Positions 472-35,044 of a DNA stretch of 48,163 bases are shown here, in pieces. Each line of letters begins with the position of its first letter. Position 1 is the first letter of the stretch. Where the stretch lies: the NCBI GenBank assembly GCA_945892755.1, contig CAMDDO010000016.1:1-48163 (forward strand), in the 5' to 3' direction. Source of the DNA: Rhizobium sp. Q54. GTDB lineage: Bacteria > Pseudomonadota > Alphaproteobacteria > UBA828. A program made the position numbers and the translations under genes. The notes beneath the pieces were generated by a model. The model searched no databases. It was not told the DNA's origin and saw nothing but the letters and a program-made list of their open reading frames with translations.

Positions 472-1659
472 ATGGCCATCCTGCGGCTATCGAGCGTAAA
501 GAGCGTTCTCTACGCCACCAGTGCAAGGGGTGAGCTGGTTCACGAAAAATATTCAGCCGCAAAGGCCGAGGGCGGCCTCGGCACCTATGTGCGGCCGCCG
601 GAGGACGCTAAGGGGATGGTCCCCGAGGGCGACGCCTTTTCGCCCAAGATCAGGCAGCACTTCGACGCGATATGGCCGCGCGTCACCAAAAACTTAAAGC
701 CGACCGCGCCAGTCGTGGTCTTGGTACATGGTTTTCTGTTCGATCCGCGCATTGCTTGGAGCCCGAACCCGGCGGATTCGGACAATCCGCATTGCCGCAT
801 CTATCATTTCGCCGATCTCGGCATGCAGAGCGAGATCAGGGAGCACACCACCGGTTGGCCGCTCCAGCTCGGCTTCAGGGAGGACGATGGCGGCAAGGAG
901 GGCCTGGCGCTTGCCTTTGGCTGGCACAGCCAGCCTGGCTTCGCGCGCTCGCTGATGGAGCGGTTTCAAAATTTCTACGCGCGCGCCTATGACAACGCGC
1001 ATGAGACCGCATGGTCGCTGGTCTGTGTCTTGCACAGTTTGGCGGCCAAGCTGCCGGCCAGTCAGCCGATCGACATTTTTTGCCACAGCCTCGGCTCGAG
1101 CGTCGTGGTGCGCGCGCTGGCGATGGCGGCGAAATACCGTTATGGCCTGGTCCATCGGATCGGCCGGGTCGTCATCCTCGGCGGCTCGGAATATACCGGC
1201 GAGGCTAATCTACTCTACAGCCGCTTGCTCGAATGCGACGCGCATTTCAAGCGCGCGCCGAGCGAGCCACCGCACGTCTACAACATCGTCAGCCGTGAGA
1301 ACGACGTGCTCGACAAGCTGGGGGAAAATTTCGGCCCCAAATCGTTTTTCTCGACCACGCAGGTGATCGGCCACAATGGTCTGGAGGCACGCAAGGGCGC
1401 CCCGAAGTGGATGGATATTCAGATCGACGGCGGCCCGATGCGCGAATGGATGGCCAAGCACAGAGACGTCGCCATCTCCGGCGACGATCCGGGGAGCATC
1501 TGGGACCATTGGTATTACTATACGCATCGCGGCAACATGGCGCTCTATCGCAACATTCTGCGCGACCGACCGAGCTGGGATTTCCCTTTGCTGCGCAAGG
1601 CGACCAAGACCCAGAAAGCCATTCCCGAAGGCGTCGCTCTCGGTTTCTTCGGGGATTGA
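472..1659 (+). CDS. Alpha/beta-hydrolase-like protein, 395 aa
   Basis: Residues 81-92 read VVVLVHGFLFDP, the strand-turn with an oxyanion-hole HG typical of alpha/beta hydrolases. Residues 204-208 form CHSLG, a nucleophile-elbow variant of GxSxG with Cys in the first position and Ser206 as the likely nucleophile. The region after it (VVVRALAMAAKY) is the expected nucleophile helix. No signal peptide or membrane segment is visible, so it is probably cytosolic. I chose ATG 472 over an upstream in-frame start at 424 because a GGGAGGGG ribosome site (461-468) sits just before it. A C-terminal half rich in Trp and His (roughly 320-370) is not explained by the fold. The substrate cannot be predicted; esterase or lipase-like activity is an inference. 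Confidence 0.7.
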   Translation: MAILRLSSVKSVLYATSARGELVHEKYSAAKAEGGLGTYVRPPEDAKGMVPEGDAFSPKIRQHFDAIWPRVTKNLKPTAPVVVLVHGFLFDPRIAWSPNPADSDNPHCRIYHFADLGMQSEIREHTTGWPLQLGFREDDGGKEGLALAFGWHSQPGFARSLMERFQNFYARAYDNAHETAWSLVCVLHSLAAKLPASQPIDIFCHSLGSSVVVRALAMAAKYRYGLVHRIGRVVILGGSEYTGEANLLYSRLLECDAHFKRAPSEPPHVYNIVSRENDVLDKLGENFGPKSFFSTTQVIGHNGLEARKGAPKWMDIQIDGGPMREWMAKHRDVAISGDDPGSIWDHWYYYTHRGNMALYRNILRDRPSWDFPLLRKATKTQKAIPEGVALGFFGD

Positions 1660-1718
1660 CCGGAACAGCCAGCCGCAATCCGGCGCGAGACGCGAAACAT
1701 GGCGAAAGGCGTTTGATC

Positions 1719-2864
1719 ATGCGAGGCGCCATCCGGGTATTGGCGCTGCTATTGTGCGCCTGGTCACTTCTGGCGTTCGCCGCCACGCCTTCTGCCGCCG
1801 ATTCCCTCGCGCTGACGCCTGCCTTTGGCGGGCTCCGGTTCGAGAAACCCGTCGCGTTGGTTTCCTCGCCACGGCCACGGATGTGGTACGTCGCCGAACA
1901 ATCGGGAATCGTGATGCTCGTCGAGGAAGGCAAGGGCAAGGCGCTTCCGAGCGTGATGGCGGATCTCCGCGACCGCGTCGAATCCGGGCCAAACGAAGCG
2001 GGCCTCTTGGGCATCGCGCTGCATCCGGGTTTTGCCGAGAACGGCAAGATTTATCTTTCCTACACCGCGCCGGGTGCGCCATTGGTCTCGCGGATCTCGG
2101 AATTCGTCTCGCGCGATCGCGGCCTGACGCTCGATCCGGCAAGCGAGCGCATCGTGCTCGCGCTCGACCAGCCCTATGGCAATCACAATGGCGGCCACAT
2201 CGCCTTCGGGCCCGACGGCTTTCTCTATATCGGCTTCGGCGACGGCGGCTCAGGCGGCGATCCGCGGGGCAACGGTCAGAATCTCGATGCCCTGCTCGGC
2301 AAGCTCCTGCGCATCGACGTCGATGGCGGGACGCCCTACGCCATTCCGCCCGACAATCCGTTTGCCAACGGCGGCGGCCGTGCCGAAATCTATGCCAGTG
2401 GCCTGCGCAATCCGTGGCGTTTTTCGTTCGACCGCGAGACCGGCGCGCTGTGGCTCGCCGATGTCGGTCAAGAGCAGTGGGAGGAAATCAATCTGGTCGT
2501 ACGCGGCGGCAATTACGGTTGGAACCGCCGCGAGGGCGCGCACTGCTTCGAGACGGATGCCTGCCGAACCGACGGCTTGATCGACCCGGTCGCCGAATAC
2601 GGTCACGATGAAGGCTGCTCGGTAACCGGCGGTTACGTTTATCGAGGCAAAGCGATGAAGGCCCTCACCGGCGTCTATTTCTATACCGACTATTGCAGCG
2701 GCACGGTCTGGGGCTTGTTCCCGAAATCAGGCGGCGGCCATGAGCGACCGCGCGTCCTGCTCAAAACGGAGCGCCGCATTTCATCCTTTGGTGAAGGCGC
2801 CGATGGCGAACTCTACATCCTGGACCATGGCAAAGGTACGATCCAGAAAATCGTCGGCAAATAG
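1719..2864 (+). CDS. Secreted PQQ-dependent sugar dehydrogenase family protein (GSDH/YliI-like)
   Basis: A 381-residue six-bladed beta-propeller of the glucose/sorbosone dehydrogenase family. The N-terminus is a signal peptide ending TPSAA before Asp-Ser, so the protein is periplasmic. Family signatures include a GLLGIALHPGF strand, NHNGGHIAFGPDGFLYIG followed by the GDGGSGGD loop, GLRNPWRFSFD and WLADVGQ. Family members bind PQQ and Ca2+ and oxidise aldose sugars; whether this one is active on glucose or another aldose is not evident. ATG 1719 was chosen because it begins the signal peptide and is preceded by GAAAGG. It lies 59 bp behind the hydrolase gene and may share its transcript. It converges with groEL. 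Confidence 0.85.
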   Translation: MRGAIRVLALLLCAWSLLAFAATPSAADSLALTPAFGGLRFEKPVALVSSPRPRMWYVAEQSGIVMLVEEGKGKALPSVMADLRDRVESGPNEAGLLGIALHPGFAENGKIYLSYTAPGAPLVSRISEFVSRDRGLTLDPASERIVLALDQPYGNHNGGHIAFGPDGFLYIGFGDGGSGGDPRGNGQNLDALLGKLLRIDVDGGTPYAIPPDNPFANGGGRAEIYASGLRNPWRFSFDRETGALWLADVGQEQWEEINLVVRGGNYGWNRREGAHCFETDACRTDGLIDPVAEYGHDEGCSVTGGYVYRGKAMKALTGVYFYTDYCSGTVWGLFPKSGGGHERPRVLLKTERRISSFGEGADGELYILDHGKGTIQKIVGK

Positions 2865-2972: not shown

Positions 2973-4643
<1,671 letters not shown>

Positions 4644-20517: not shown

Positions 20518-20844
20518 AGAGCATATTCCGATCAAAGTGACTCAGTTGCGTTGCGTCGTGGCGAGGCGATTCGCCAGGCGCGGCGCGTCGTGCGCCAGTG
20601 CGCACGCAGGGCGTGCGACGAGCGATGCGGGGCCATCGGTCAAGCGGCGCAACGCCGCGAGCGCCCGCCACGGCGCAACCCTTAGGGCTGGGGCCTTTTG
20701 CGACGCGGGTTCGTCGAGCGCCACGCGCTCGCGGAGCGCGATGCAGGGCTCGCCCGTAGGCGCCGCTACGCGCTTCGCCCTGCTCCTGCCCGCGGCGCAA
20801 AATTCCTCCGGCGCAACTGGGTCAACTTGGTCGGAACATGCTCT
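20518..20844. repeat. 327-bp MITE-like element with 33-bp terminal inverted repeats
   Basis: The outer arms are 20518-20550 (AGAGCATATTCCGATCAAAG...) and 20812-20844, whose reverse complement begins AGAGCATGTTCCGACCAAGT and also ends CAGTTGCG. They agree at 28 of 33 positions, and weaker similarity continues a few bases outside. The interior is GC-rich with small internal dyads such as CGTGCGC...GCGCACG, and no coding bias or ribosome site. It contains no transposase. The right end overlaps the last two bases of the regulator's stop codon. No clear target-site duplication is visible. It is best read as a non-autonomous mobile or repeat-family element. Confidence 0.6.
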
Positions 20845-23017
20845 AGGACGGCAATCCGGCGCGCACCAGCAAAGCAAGCTCCGCATCGGCGACCGCGCGA
20901 TCGGCGTAGGGCTGTACCGCCAGCCAGCGCGCCGCCGAAAAGTGCGGCTCGACCGCCCGGATCGCGTCGGCCTCGCGGCGCGCGCGATCGACATCGTTGA
21001 GCTCGACCAGCGCCATGATCAATTCAATCCTGGGCGCGAGCGCCTCGTCGCCGGCCTTGAGATGCCCATCGAGCAATGGCACGGCGTCTTTCGCGCGGCC
21101 GAGCATGCGGTAGATGCGCGCGAGATTCCAGGCGTACCAGTCCGGAAACGATGGGCTGAGCCGCATCGCCTTCTCCATCACGACCAGGCCGCGCTCAAGG
21201 TTCCCCGTATAGGTCAAGGTATTGGCAAGCAGCGCCATCGCTTCGGAATCGTTCGGACTGAGCTGGATGGCGCGTTCGCCAAGTTCGACCGCCCGGGCGT
21301 GGTTGCCGCCAATCAGGGTGAGGCTGCCGAGCAGGCTGTAGGCGCGACCGCGCGTCGGATCGAGCGCGATGGTTTTCTCGGCGAGCGCCGCCGCGGTGGC
21401 TAGCGATGCCACCGGATCCGGGCTCCAATTGAAGCGCACATCGACATAGTGGGTCCACGCCAGACCCTCAAGCGCTCCGGGGTAGTCTGGATCGATCTCC
21501 GTTGCCTCCAAATAGAGCGCGCGGGCGCGGGCGTTTTCCGCCTGCGTCAGGCGCCGAAGCGCGCCAAGACCTTCGCTCGCCGCGAGCCACGCCTCGAGAT
21601 CGCGCGTGCCATGAGACGGCGTGCGTTGCGGTGCTTCGCCGCGCGCCATGGTCACTTCGAGCGTCGCCAGGACTTTGAGCGTGATCTCATCTTGCAGCGC
21701 GAAGACATCCTCGATCGCGCGGTCATAGCGGTCGGCCCAGACCTGCGCGCCACGCAACGCGTCGGAGAGCTGGACCGAGATGCGCACGTGCTCGCCGACC
21801 CGCTGGACGCTGCCATCGAGCACCCAGCGCACACCCAACGCCTCGGCGATGCGGCCCGGCGGTTTGTTCTGATCGGCGAAGGGCCGCGCCGCGGCGGGCG
21901 CGATTACGAACATATCCGGCATCACCGAGAGCGCGGTCGTGATGTCCTCGGCCATGCCCTGGGTCAATCCGGACGGCGCGGCGCCATCCGAAAGGTCGCG
22001 AAACGGCAGCACCGCGATCGAGGGCTTGTCCGGCAGCGCGAAGGCCATGGCCGAGGGATTGGCCGGCTCGATCGGCTCGCCGCCGCCGAACAGGAGCGCC
22101 GCGACAACCGCCACCGCCGCGACGAGCGCGCCGGCACCCGCCGCGATCGCTAGTCGCCGGCGGCTGTTTCGATTCGGCGCCGCAAGGATAGGCCGAGGGT
22201 CGAGCGGCGCGCCGACCGAGGGCGAGCGATCCAATGATGCCGCAGGGACGGACGTCGCCTCGGTTTGGACCGGCCTCGCCACGTCAACGCCGCCCGAACG
22301 GCGCAGCTCGTCAAACAGCTTACGGGTCTCGGCGTCGGGCTCGGCGTCAAGCTCGCGCTTCATCGCATCGAAACAGTGCTGGTACTGGCGCAGCGCGTCG
22401 GCGCGCCGACCCATGCGACCATAGAGCCGCATCAGCGCGCGATGCGCCTCTTCATTGGCCGGCTCGACCGCGAGCAGCCGGCGTGCGGCGTCCGCCGCCG
22501 TCTCGAAGTCACCGGCGGCGTCGGCGAGGCCCACCAATTTGATCGCGCATTCACCGAAGCGGCGGCGCCACTGGGCCCGCTCCACCGCCAGCCATTCCTC
22601 GAAGCCTTCCGAACGGAGCGACAAGCCGGCGGCGAGCTCGCCCCTATAGAGCGCGACCGCCCGGCGCAAGGCATCAAGGCTGCCCTCGCGCGCCAGGCGA
22701 TCGAATTCCCAAGCATCGACATTGAGTCGATCCGAATCGAGCCGAACCTCGTCATGGCTGGCGACGACCGGCGGACCATCGGCTTCGCCGAATTCCTTGC
22801 GCAGGCCGAGCAGGCATTGGCGCAGCGAATGGCGGGCCTGTTCCTCGCCCCGGTCCGACCAAAGGAGGCCCGCTAGCCGATCCCGCGCCAAGGTGTTGTT
22901 CGGGCTCAAGGCAAGCACGAGCAAGGCAGCGCCGGCGTGACGGCCAGGCGACGGCAAAGGCGCGCCACGACCATCGCTAAACGCCAGCGCGCCCAAGACT
23001 TCGATTCGAATCGTCAG
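20843..23017 (-). CDS. BTAD/TPR transcriptional regulator with membrane helix and TolB-like domain
   Basis: About 724 residues. The N-terminus (VLGALAFSDGRGAPLP ... RDRLAGLLWSDRGEEQARHSLRQCL) is a short winged-helix-type region typical of SARP/BTAD proteins. A BTAD domain follows at 100-245 (YRGELAAGLSLRSEGFEEWLAVER; DALRQYQHCFDAMKRELDAEPDAET), then a single membrane helix at about 288-311, a TolB N-like domain at 330-450 (SIAVLPFRDLSD; VRWVLDGSVQRVGEHVRISVQL), and TPR repeats. This domain order is known from adenylate-cyclase-like and CadC-like sensors. The first in-frame ATG/GTG/TTG is TTG 22996, but a GGGGAGG site sits 7 bp before an in-frame CTG at 23017, giving LTIRIEVLGAL, the normal start of this family. 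I take CTG as the start. Confidence 0.75.
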   Translation of the reverse strand: MTIRIEVLGALAFSDGRGAPLPSPGRHAGAALLVLALSPNNTLARDRLAGLLWSDRGEEQARHSLRQCLLGLRKEFGEADGPPVVASHDEVRLDSDRLNVDAWEFDRLAREGSLDALRRAVALYRGELAAGLSLRSEGFEEWLAVERAQWRRRFGECAIKLVGLADAAGDFETAADAARRLLAVEPANEEAHRALMRLYGRMGRRADALRQYQHCFDAMKRELDAEPDAETRKLFDELRRSGGVDVARPVQTEATSVPAASLDRSPSVGAPLDPRPILAAPNRNSRRRLAIAAGAGALVAAVAVVAALLFGGGEPIEPANPSAMAFALPDKPSIAVLPFRDLSDGAAPSGLTQGMAEDITTALSVMPDMFVIAPAAARPFADQNKPPGRIAEALGVRWVLDGSVQRVGEHVRISVQLSDALRGAQVWADRYDRAIEDVFALQDEITLKVLATLEVTMARGEAPQRTPSHGTRDLEAWLAASEGLGALRRLTQAENARARALYLEATEIDPDYPGALEGLAWTHYVDVRFNWSPDPVASLATAAALAEKTIALDPTRGRAYSLLGSLTLIGGNHARAVELGERAIQLSPNDSEAMALLANTLTYTGNLERGLVVMEKAMRLSPSFPDWYAWNLARIYRMLGRAKDAVPLLDGHLKAGDEALAPRIELIMALVELNDVDRARREADAIRAVEPHFSAARWLAVQPYADRAVADAELALLVRAGLPS

Positions 23018-23148: not shown

Positions 23149-23251
23149 GGGCGGATCACGAGGCCCCTTCAGTCTGACCTCATTCAGGGTGACACGCGTT
23201 GGACCGATACCGACCCAAGGCCCTCACCCCCTAATCAAGGAGTACCGCCCG

Positions 23252-23350
23252 ATGACCAGGGAAACCCACGAGCTCCCCCACTACCGGCATGCGCTGGCAG
23301 GCTTCGCAGTGGTGATCTTCCTCCTCGCGGTCCTTGGCTTGGCGGTCTGA
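23252..23350 (+). CDS. Small single-helix membrane peptide, 32 aa
   Basis: An ATG at 23252 with an AAGGAG site 9 bp upstream opens a 32-codon frame. The N-terminal half is polar and His-rich (MTRETHELPHYRH). The second half is one uninterrupted hydrophobic helix (ALAGFAVVIFLLAVLGLAV) ending at the stop. The charge pattern predicts the N-terminus in the cytosol. It is too short for homology by eye; small cytochrome-oxidase accessory subunits and type I toxin-like peptides share this shape, but nothing here proves either. It is divergent from the BTAD regulator and followed by a structured RNA tail and terminator, so a complete small transcription unit is plausible. Confidence 0.6.
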   Translation: MTRETHELPHYRHALAGFAVVIFLLAVLGLAV

Positions 23351-23422
23351 CCGAATTTTCGAGATGGGTGGGGAGACGGGGACTCAAAGAAAAACCTCGG
23401 GAGGACCAGTTTTCTCCACCCT

Positions 23423-23524
23423 GGCGCCGCTGGCCAGGTAGGCCGCGGCGCCAACGACCCCAAACAAGGGTCGCACGTTCCTCCGCCTGGCGCCGCTGGT
23501 CATGTAGACCGCGGCGCCCTTTTT
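23423..23524 (+). ncRNA. Three-hairpin structured RNA tail with tandem covarying stems
   Basis: Hairpin 1 (23423-23452) is GGCGCCGC-U-GGCC, loop AGGUA, GGCC-GCGGCGCC. Hairpin 2 (23455-23473) is CGACCC, 7-base loop, GGGTCG. Hairpin 3 (23489-23518) repeats hairpin 1 exactly 66 bp later but with GGTC/GACC in the upper stem and loop ATGTA. One base pair has changed as a pair (C-G to U-A) while the bulged U and the lower stem are kept. The flanks CTCC-CC before each copy are also similar. The unit follows the 32-residue peptide gene and ends with a U tract. It may be the 3' end of that transcript or an independent small RNA. Confidence 0.5.
23489..23524 (+). terminator. Intrinsic terminator after the peptide/RNA unit
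   Basis: A 12-bp stem with one bulged U (hairpin 3 of the structured RNA) followed on the plus strand by CTTTTT. The minus strand has no U tract there, so the direction is from the small peptide gene towards the GMC gene. Confidence 0.75.
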
Positions 23525-23551
23525 CGCTCCGAAAGGGCGGGCCGCGCCGGC

Positions 23552-25150
23552 TCAGGCGCGGGCCGCGCGCCGGATCATGTCGGCGGCTTTTTCGGCGATC
23601 ATGATGACCGGCGCGTTGGTATTGCCCGAGGTCAGGCGCGGCATGATCGCGGCATCGACCACGCGAAGCCCGCCAATCCCTCGGACACGCAGTTCCTCAT
23701 CGACCACCGCCATGGGGTCCGCGCCCATCTTGCACGTGCCAACCGGGTGATAGAGCGTCGCGCCGGTGCGCCGGGCGTAGTCGAGGAGCTCATGGTCGCT
23801 CGTGCAAGTCGCGCCGGGAACGTCTTCGGCCACGATGAAATCGCGCAGGGCCGGGGCGGCGGTAATCGCGCGCGCGATCTTCAGGCCCGCGACCAGCGTA
23901 CGACGGTCGAGCTCGTCGGCCAGGAAATTGGGCCGGATCGCCGGCGGCGCGAAAGGATCGGCGGACTTCAGGTGGATCGTGCCGCGGCTCTCGGGCCGCA
24001 TCTGGCACGGCCCGATGGTGAGGCCGGGAAATTTGTCGAGCGTGCGCTTCTTCGGGTCGCGGAAACTGGCATGCGCGATGTGATATTGTACGTCGGGCGT
24101 CGCGAGCTCGGGCCGCGTCTTGACGAAGCCGCACAGCACCCCGGCCGTGAGGGTGAGCCCACCGCGCTTGAACAGATAGTATTTCAGGAGCTCGCCGAGC
24201 ATCGGCAGGCCGCGCATCCGCTCATTCAGCGTCACCGCGTTCCGCACGCGCCAGACCATGCGCGCGACATAGTGATCCTGATAGTTCTCGCCGACTCCCG
24301 GCAAAGCGTGGCGGACCGCGATGCCATGCGCCTTCAAGACCTCGGGCCTGCCGATGCCGGACAATTCCAGCAATTGCGGCGATTGCACCGCGCCGGCGCT
24401 TAAGATCACTTCGCGCGCGGCGCGCGCCGCCGCGCTCTTGCCATGGCGCACATAGGTCACGCCGACAGCCTTCAGACCGTCGAATAGAATGCCGCTCGCC
24501 TGCGCTTCGGTCACGACGTCGAGGTTGGGCCGCGAGCGCGCCGGATGCAAATAGGCATCGGCCGCGCTCCAGCGCGTTCCGCCCTTCTGCGTCACCTGGA
24601 AATAGCCGAAGCCGTCCTGTGTTCCGCTATTGTAGTCCGGCGTGCGCGGAAAGCCGGCCTGGGCCGCGCCGTCCATCAAGACGTCGAGCAACCGATCGGT
24701 CTCGCGCTGATTTGCCACGTTGAGCGGACCGCCGACGCCGCGGTGCGGCCCTTCGGGGTTCTCGCGGTTCTCGGCTTTCTTGAAATAGGGCAACACGTCG
24801 TCATAGGACCAGCCGCGATTGCCCGCTTGAGCCCAGCCATCATAGTCCGCCGCCTGGCCGCGCACATAGATCATGCCGTTGATCGAACTCGAGCCGCCGA
24901 GCACGCGGCCGCGCGGAATCGGGATCGCGCGGTTGTGAGTGGCGGGCTCGGGCTCGCTGTCAAAAAGCCAATTGACGGTGGGGTCGACCATGGTCTTGAC
25001 ATAGCCGGCGGGGATTTTGATCCAGCGATTGGTATCGGCCCCGCCGGCTTCGATCAGCAATACGCGTACCTGGCCGTCTTCGCTCAAGCGATTGGCCAGG
25101 ACACAGCCGGCTGAGCCCGCGCCGACGATGATGTAGTCGTAATCCGCCAA
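23552..25150 (-). CDS. GMC family FAD oxidoreductase (choline dehydrogenase-like)
   Basis: A 532-residue GMC oxidoreductase. It has the N-terminal Rossmann motif DYIIVGAGSAGCVLANRLSED, the GMC signature GGSSSINGMIYVRGQ, a second signature GAVQSPQLLELSGIG, the active-site segment LYHPVGTCKMG with the catalytic His, and a C-terminal FAD contact GNTNAPVIMIAEKAAD. Family members oxidise alcohols such as choline, alkanols or polyethylene glycol; the substrate is not evident. I start it at TTG 25150, directly at the FAD motif, with GGGGGA 6 bp upstream; the longer open frame adds only low-complexity antisense sequence. It is divergent from the AtuA pair. Confidence 0.9.
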   Translation of the reverse strand: MADYDYIIVGAGSAGCVLANRLSEDGQVRVLLIEAGGADTNRWIKIPAGYVKTMVDPTVNWLFDSEPEPATHNRAIPIPRGRVLGGSSSINGMIYVRGQAADYDGWAQAGNRGWSYDDVLPYFKKAENRENPEGPHRGVGGPLNVANQRETDRLLDVLMDGAAQAGFPRTPDYNSGTQDGFGYFQVTQKGGTRWSAADAYLHPARSRPNLDVVTEAQASGILFDGLKAVGVTYVRHGKSAAARAAREVILSAGAVQSPQLLELSGIGRPEVLKAHGIAVRHALPGVGENYQDHYVARMVWRVRNAVTLNERMRGLPMLGELLKYYLFKRGGLTLTAGVLCGFVKTRPELATPDVQYHIAHASFRDPKKRTLDKFPGLTIGPCQMRPESRGTIHLKSADPFAPPAIRPNFLADELDRRTLVAGLKIARAITAAPALRDFIVAEDVPGATCTSDHELLDYARRTGATLYHPVGTCKMGADPMAVVDEELRVRGIGGLRVVDAAIMPRLTSGNTNAPVIMIAEKAADMIRRAARA

Positions 25151-25312
25151 GGCCGTTCCCCCGCATCTCCGGTACCGCGGCGGCGAGACTAGGACAAAGG
25201 ACGCCAGAGCAACAGACCGGTTATGGCGGGCCCCTTGCGGCCAACCCCATAGTTGACGCACGGTAATTGAGTCAAACGTCTCGGCATAGCGCGGCGAGCA
25301 CAAAGATCATCC

Positions 25313-27755: not shown

Positions 27756-28526
27756 TCATTCGCGTGCAAGCTCCTGACGCAGGCGTCCCATCGCCTCGAC
27801 CAAGGCCGGCGCCTCGCGCGGACAATGGCCGGTCGCGTCCTTGGACAGGCGCAGATCGAGAATCGTTTTGACCCGGCCGGGATTGGCGCCCAGCACCAGC
27901 ACGCGCTGGCCCATATAGGCCGCCTCCATGATCGAATGCGTGACGAACAGGATCGTCGCGCCGGTGCGCCGCCAAAGCCGGAGCAGCTCATCGTTCAATC
28001 GATCGCGCGTCATCTCATCGAGCGCGCCGAATGGCTCGTCCATCAGAAGGATGCGCGGGTTGCAGAGCAACGCGCGGGCGATCGCGACACGCTGGCGCTG
28101 GCCACCCGAAAGCTGATGCGGAAATCGATTTGCAAGCTCGGCAAGCCCGACCAGCGCAAGCAACTCATCGACACTCGTCGTTATCTGACGGCCCAGACTC
28201 CGGCGGCCGACCAGAAGCGGCAACTCGACATTGCCGCGTACGGTACGCCAGGGTAGCAGCGTCGAATCCTGAAACACGAAGGCCACGTCGCGACGCGCAC
28301 GCACCGCGGCCGGTGTTTCGCCAAGCACCTGAAGCGCGCCGCCCAGCGGCTCCAATAGATCGGCGATGACACGCAAGAGGGTCGATTTGCCGCAGCCCGA
28401 GGGCCCGAGGATCGTAAGAAACTCACCCTCGGCGATGGTCAGGTCGAGACTGCCGAGAACCGAGAGCGGGCCGGTCTCGAGTTCGTAGCCGATCTCGAGA
28501 CCGCGCGCCCGTATGGCCTCGGCCAT
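27756..28526 (-). CDS. ABC transporter ATP-binding protein (TauB/SsuB type)
   Basis: A 256-residue ATPase with Walker A GPSGCGKST, Q-loop FVFQDSTLLPWRTV, signature LSGGQRQRVAIARAL, Walker B LLMDEPFGALD and switch His in VTHS. This FGALD form is characteristic of nitrate/sulfonate/taurine-type importers. It energises the permease encoded 7 bp downstream, with the substrate-binding protein encoded 9 bp upstream. Its N-terminus reads MAEAIRARGLEIGYELETGPLSVLG, a normal start for this family. Confidence 0.94.
   Translation of the reverse strand: MAEAIRARGLEIGYELETGPLSVLGSLDLTIAEGEFLTILGPSGCGKSTLLRVIADLLEPLGGALQVLGETPAAVRARRDVAFVFQDSTLLPWRTVRGNVELPLLVGRRSLGRQITTSVDELLALVGLAELANRFPHQLSGGQRQRVAIARALLCNPRILLMDEPFGALDEMTRDRLNDELLRLWRRTGATILFVTHSIMEAAYMGQRVLVLGANPGRVKTILDLRLSKDATGHCPREAPALVEAMGRLRQELARE

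Positions 28527-34968: not shown

Positions 34969-35044
<76 letters not shown>

Follow-up and report, generated by a model that had tools for sequence, protein, structure and literature searches.

Two near-identical tandem hairpins behind a putative small membrane-peptide gene are most likely a locally duplicated terminator

A tandem pair of near-identical hairpins on the plus strand of a 48,163-nucleotide stretch of DNA (the window) is a real sequence feature, and its function is most likely an ordinary one. Since the hairpin occurs at a single place in the genome and in no relative searched, the pair most likely represents local duplication of a terminator and not a functional RNA of a new kind. 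We consider it probable that a short plus-strand mRNA for a 32-amino-acid membrane peptide ends in this structured unit, the last hairpin acting as its intrinsic terminator and a duplicate of that hairpin lying upstream. The anatomy gives good support to a folded 3′ end that includes an intrinsic terminator, but nothing in the analysis shows the structured RNA of the original prediction to be a separate functional molecule.

Repeat search and folding recovered the two predicted 30-nt stems 66 bp apart, with the same bulged U and a paired change from C-G to U-A. These stems are the cores (23423–23452 and 23489–23518) of 33-nt direct repeats at 23420–23452 and 23486–23518 that share 91% identity at a spacing of 66 bp. 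Each core, also found by a hairpin scan, comprises 8 bp, a bulged U, 4 bp and a 5-nt loop, in the common order GGCGCCGC, bulged U, GGYC, loop, GRCC and GCGGCGCC. Copy 1 reads GGCGCCGC-U-GGCC-AGGUA-GGCC-GCGGCGCC and has no U tract; copy 2 reads GGCGCCGC-U-GGUC-AUGUA-GACC-GCGGCGCC and is followed by a C and a U5 tract (23519–23524). Folded alone, the cores of copies 1 and 2 reach −26.0 and −23.9 kcal/mol, respectively. The predicted third stem is likewise present between the copies as a 6-bp middle hairpin (23455–23473; CGACCC-CAAACAA-GGGUCG, −8.6 kcal/mol), followed by the linker CACGUUCCUCCGCCU (23474–23488), which is partly unpaired in the folds and resembles an anti-Shine–Dalgarno sequence. 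All three hairpins are kept when folded in a 335-nt context, and none of 200 dinucleotide shuffles matched the native stability of either 23412–23528 (z-score −4.98) or 23360–23530 (z-score −5.88). Minimum free energy folds of 23360–23530 and 23190–23524 further predict a possible long-range plus-strand stem at 23365–23421, in which GGGUGGGGAGA would pair with UUUUCUCCACCC. Only six hairpins of at least 11 bp occur in the 48-kb window, two of them being copies 1 and 2. Beyond TTYCTCC, the flanks of the two copies show no significant likeness, indicating that the duplicated segment is short; the two copies probably arose by a local duplication of about 33 nt.

Copy 1 begins 76 nt past the stop codon of a small plus-strand ORF (23252–23347; MTRETHELPHYRHALAGFAVVIFLLAVLGLAV), which, judged from its sequence, is likely an unannotated gene for a hydrophobic peptide of 32 amino acids with a probable single transmembrane segment. 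The Shine–Dalgarno sequence AAGGAG (23237–23242, plus strand) stands 9 nt before the ATG, and the codon score of 14.1, compared with 15.0 ± 6.0 for true genes of the window, is reached by 0.3% of false-frame windows. A small protein gene has thus likely escaped annotation next to the terminator. The peptide has no Pfam match, and a search of 191 genomes returned no convincing homologue. A 75% likeness over 24 codons (E 0.015) links it to part of a longer transporter-like protein from another genus, the segment 'SELPAYRHAGRAVLIFLAVVGLAA'; this likeness is probably due to chance, as the homologue of that protein in the same genome (G000:C81) is less similar to the peptide. Two ORFs that run through the hairpins themselves, a 78-amino-acid plus-strand frame (23368–23604; codon score −64) and a 60-amino-acid minus-strand frame (23281–23463; codon score −29), are not likely genes.

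Copy 2 has the anatomy of an intrinsic terminator. Its stable GC-rich 12-bp stem (energy as above) is followed by CUUUUU, and it lies 3′ of the small ORF, facing a convergent GMC oxidoreductase gene on the minus strand (23552–25168; Pfam GMC_oxred_N/C) with its stop codon at 23552–23554. The terminator said to close the unit is therefore present, although not as a fourth element: it is copy 2 together with the U tract. Against this assignment, a single C intervenes between the stem and the U tract, U5 is modest and an automated terminator scan did not list copy 2, an omission probably due to the bulge in the stem. A minus-strand terminator for the GMC gene was rejected, as neither hairpin has a T run behind it when read on that strand. 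Upstream of the unit, a divergent gene at 20843–22996 encodes a BTAD-type (BTAD/SARP) regulator with TPRs (Pfam).

The terminator format, a stem followed by 1–2 nt, T5 and CG, is similar to that of a hairpin at 2926–2962, which carries CGTTTTTCG and makes up, with 2883–2908, the window's one further pair of closely spaced hairpins. That pair lies between a convergent 485-amino-acid ORF (1407–2864, plus strand) and a minus-strand ORF (2973–4625) that we call GroEL-like by the GGM tail of GroEL, so that a hairpin pair with a T5 tract at a gene's 3′ end has a precedent within this DNA. Its hairpins, of 11 and 14 bp, look like one terminator per strand, one having AAAAAC on its left (a T run on the minus strand) and the other being followed by CGTTTTTCG. 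A separate 13-bp imperfect palindrome, CGGTCTCGAGTTCG..CTCGAGACCG, lies at 28472–28503 and has no T run.

From this arrangement we infer that the unit is transcribed and that transcription ends at 23520–23524, where RNA polymerase would be released at copy 2 and the U5 tract as at a classical intrinsic terminator. Copy 1 could not act alone in this way, because it has no U tract; together with the middle stem it would make up a cluster of hairpins upstream, with possible roles in pausing, in protecting the RNA from 3′ exonucleases or in insulating the convergent GMC oxidoreductase gene.

Searches for relatives led back to this one locus. Across the 3.27-Mb genome, the only sites recovered, both by a pattern allowing three mismatches and by a covariance model built from the hairpin (R1), were the two adjacent copies already known; the R1 runner-up scored 26 bits against 56 bits for the hairpin, and the six weaker matches examined all lie in open frames of 250–370 codons. 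The covariance search proposed in the original prediction yielded only weak matches, both with R1 in 21 genomes of the family and with a model of the whole unit (R2) in 289 genomes of the class, where the best outside match scored 27 against 149 bits and all 14 inspected matches fall within open frames of 127–808 codons. A DNA search of 95 genomes gave only matches of 24–40 nt that resemble coding or repeat coincidences, and BLAST of the unit against retrieved loci, including 80 GMC loci with flanks of up to 4 kb, found nothing significant outside the source genome except two short coding matches, the same as in the 95-genome search. Rfam 15 at the gathering score places no family on the unit, its sole match in the window being a tRNA-Lys at 34972–35044. 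Plasmids gave three weak partial matches (E at least 0.03), phages gave no match to the unit and viral contigs gave none to the exact pattern.

The sister species G002 carries an orthologous GMC gene with 81% identity, at the 3′ end of which the repeated hairpin is absent. There, an unrelated terminator-like hairpin (GGTCGCATCGGG...CCCGGTGCGACC, with GGTTTTTT) faces a different convergent gene, by eye a methyltransferase-like frame, indicating that a terminator-like structure is maintained at this position although its sequence is not. In the same species (L121, G002:C88, about 1–1500), near the GMC 3′ end, the methyltransferase-like frame appears to come after a truncated endonuclease/exonuclease/phosphatase-like frame (by eye), an order suggesting a rearrangement or an assembly join at the GMC locus in the genus.

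Three substitutions distinguish copy 1 from copy 2. Two of them, C/T and G/A, face each other across the 4-bp stem, and the third, G/T, lies in the loop. The inner-stem pair is accordingly C-G in copy 1 and U-A in copy 2, which had been read as covariation with selection on RNA structure as its simplest reason. The compensatory change is real but amounts to just one pair in one comparison between two paralogous copies of one genome, and the term covarying does not apply in its comparative sense: the two paralogous copies are all that was found, with no homologous locus whose arms could vary. In simulations, three random substitutions on the hairpin produced a paired Watson–Crick double change in 2.8–4.1% of trials, and 1.0–2.0% of random placements gave a paired double change with all pairs retained. 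The difference may reflect selection keeping the stem or a template-switch event, as replication template switching can create or repair stems and give apparent compensatory changes (PMC8794818). Because terminators also need pairing and template switching can produce such changes, one paired change lends weak support to a functional RNA, and terminator function would by itself account for any selection on pairing. The covariation argument is thus suggestive but weak, a caution that a single paired change between adjacent copies is a weak sign of a functional RNA.

Among other explanations, the unit could be a regulatory sRNA, derived from the 3′ UTR or independently transcribed, with two repeated modules whose C/U-rich linkers (UUUUCUCCACCC and UUCCUCCGCC) act on Shine–Dalgarno sequences. 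We regard this as unlikely. The repeated module, the strong fold and the partly accessible UUCCUCC linker fit such a role, multi-hairpin sRNAs with anti-Shine–Dalgarno motifs are known in Alphaproteobacteria (PMC3927594) and sRNAs are transcribed there behind small-protein genes (PMC10253847). However, the R1 and R2 searches gave no homologue, the loops are AGGUA and AUGUA rather than CCUCCUCCC, and the longer fold encloses the first C/U motif in a stem. Autoregulation through pairing of the linker with the Shine–Dalgarno region of the small ORF was rejected, as the duplex with that leader is no better than those of shuffles, 21% of which pair as well. E. coli Hfq-dependent sRNAs need a long U tract of 7 or more after a moderate terminator hairpin (PMC5558911), and the U5 behind a very strong stem found here is the opposite of this E. 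coli-derived pattern. A scan limited to sigma-70-like promoters found none in front of the unit. A regulatory sRNA role is no more than possible, and we consider very unlikely its most specific form, a lineage-specific, Rfam-unlisted sRNA from the 3′ UTR of the new 32-amino-acid membrane-peptide mRNA whose two hairpin modules would offer C/U-rich anti-Shine–Dalgarno linkers to target mRNAs.

The double hairpin could also have no RNA function at all and be a GC-rich DNA palindrome that was copied locally and kept perfect by template switching rather than by selection. This would agree with its being unique to this genome and missing in G002, and with the capacity of template switching to make or repair stems and so mimic compensation (PMC8794818). 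We find it quite unlikely, however, given the U tract that follows copy 2 downstream of a plausible ORF, and the terminator appearance of a 12-bp stem with a U tract between convergent genes. Two DNA-level dyad binding sites for a regulator, for example the BTAD/SARP-type protein encoded nearby, are highly improbable, as is membership in a REP-like dispersed palindrome family: two dyads at a fixed 66-bp spacing and the nearby regulator gene would suit the former, but the position is downstream of the small ORF and not at a promoter, and the lack of any further genome copy (26 against 56 bits) indicates that the hairpin is not a dispersed repeat.

We return to a duplicated terminator as the preferred reading and compare it with known systems. 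Like REP-like palindromes, the hairpins are intergenic, GC-rich and imperfect and occur as two nearby copies; unlike them, they are not found in many copies, only as one adjacent pair. With the CcsR or 'cuckoo' sRNAs (PMC10253847) and SmelA075/SmelA099 of Rhizobiales (PMC3927594), the unit shares tandem hairpins behind a small-protein gene, a terminal terminator and C/U-rich stretches that resemble anti-Shine–Dalgarno sequences. CcsR RNAs are found behind DUF1127 genes (CIN1 locus; Rhodobacter, PMC10253847), whereas the small ORF here is not DUF1127, having no Pfam match; SmelA075-type sRNAs carry CCUCCUCCC in their hairpin loops (PMC3927594), a motif that the AGGUA and AUGUA loops lack. In further contrast to both, it is the stems and not the loops that are alike between the copies here, and the unit has no relatives in the collections searched. 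Hairpin clusters, described in a computational and RNA-seq study as common 3′-end termination units that lie mostly at most 80 nt from the stop codon (PMC8355165), share with the unit a GC-rich, short-loop stem followed by a U run and a close grouping of several hairpins about 80 nt or less from the stop codon. The 15-nt gap before copy 2 falls just outside the limit of fewer than 15 bases used for such clusters, and the pair described here differs from them in that its two hairpins are near-identical, with a U tract on the second only.
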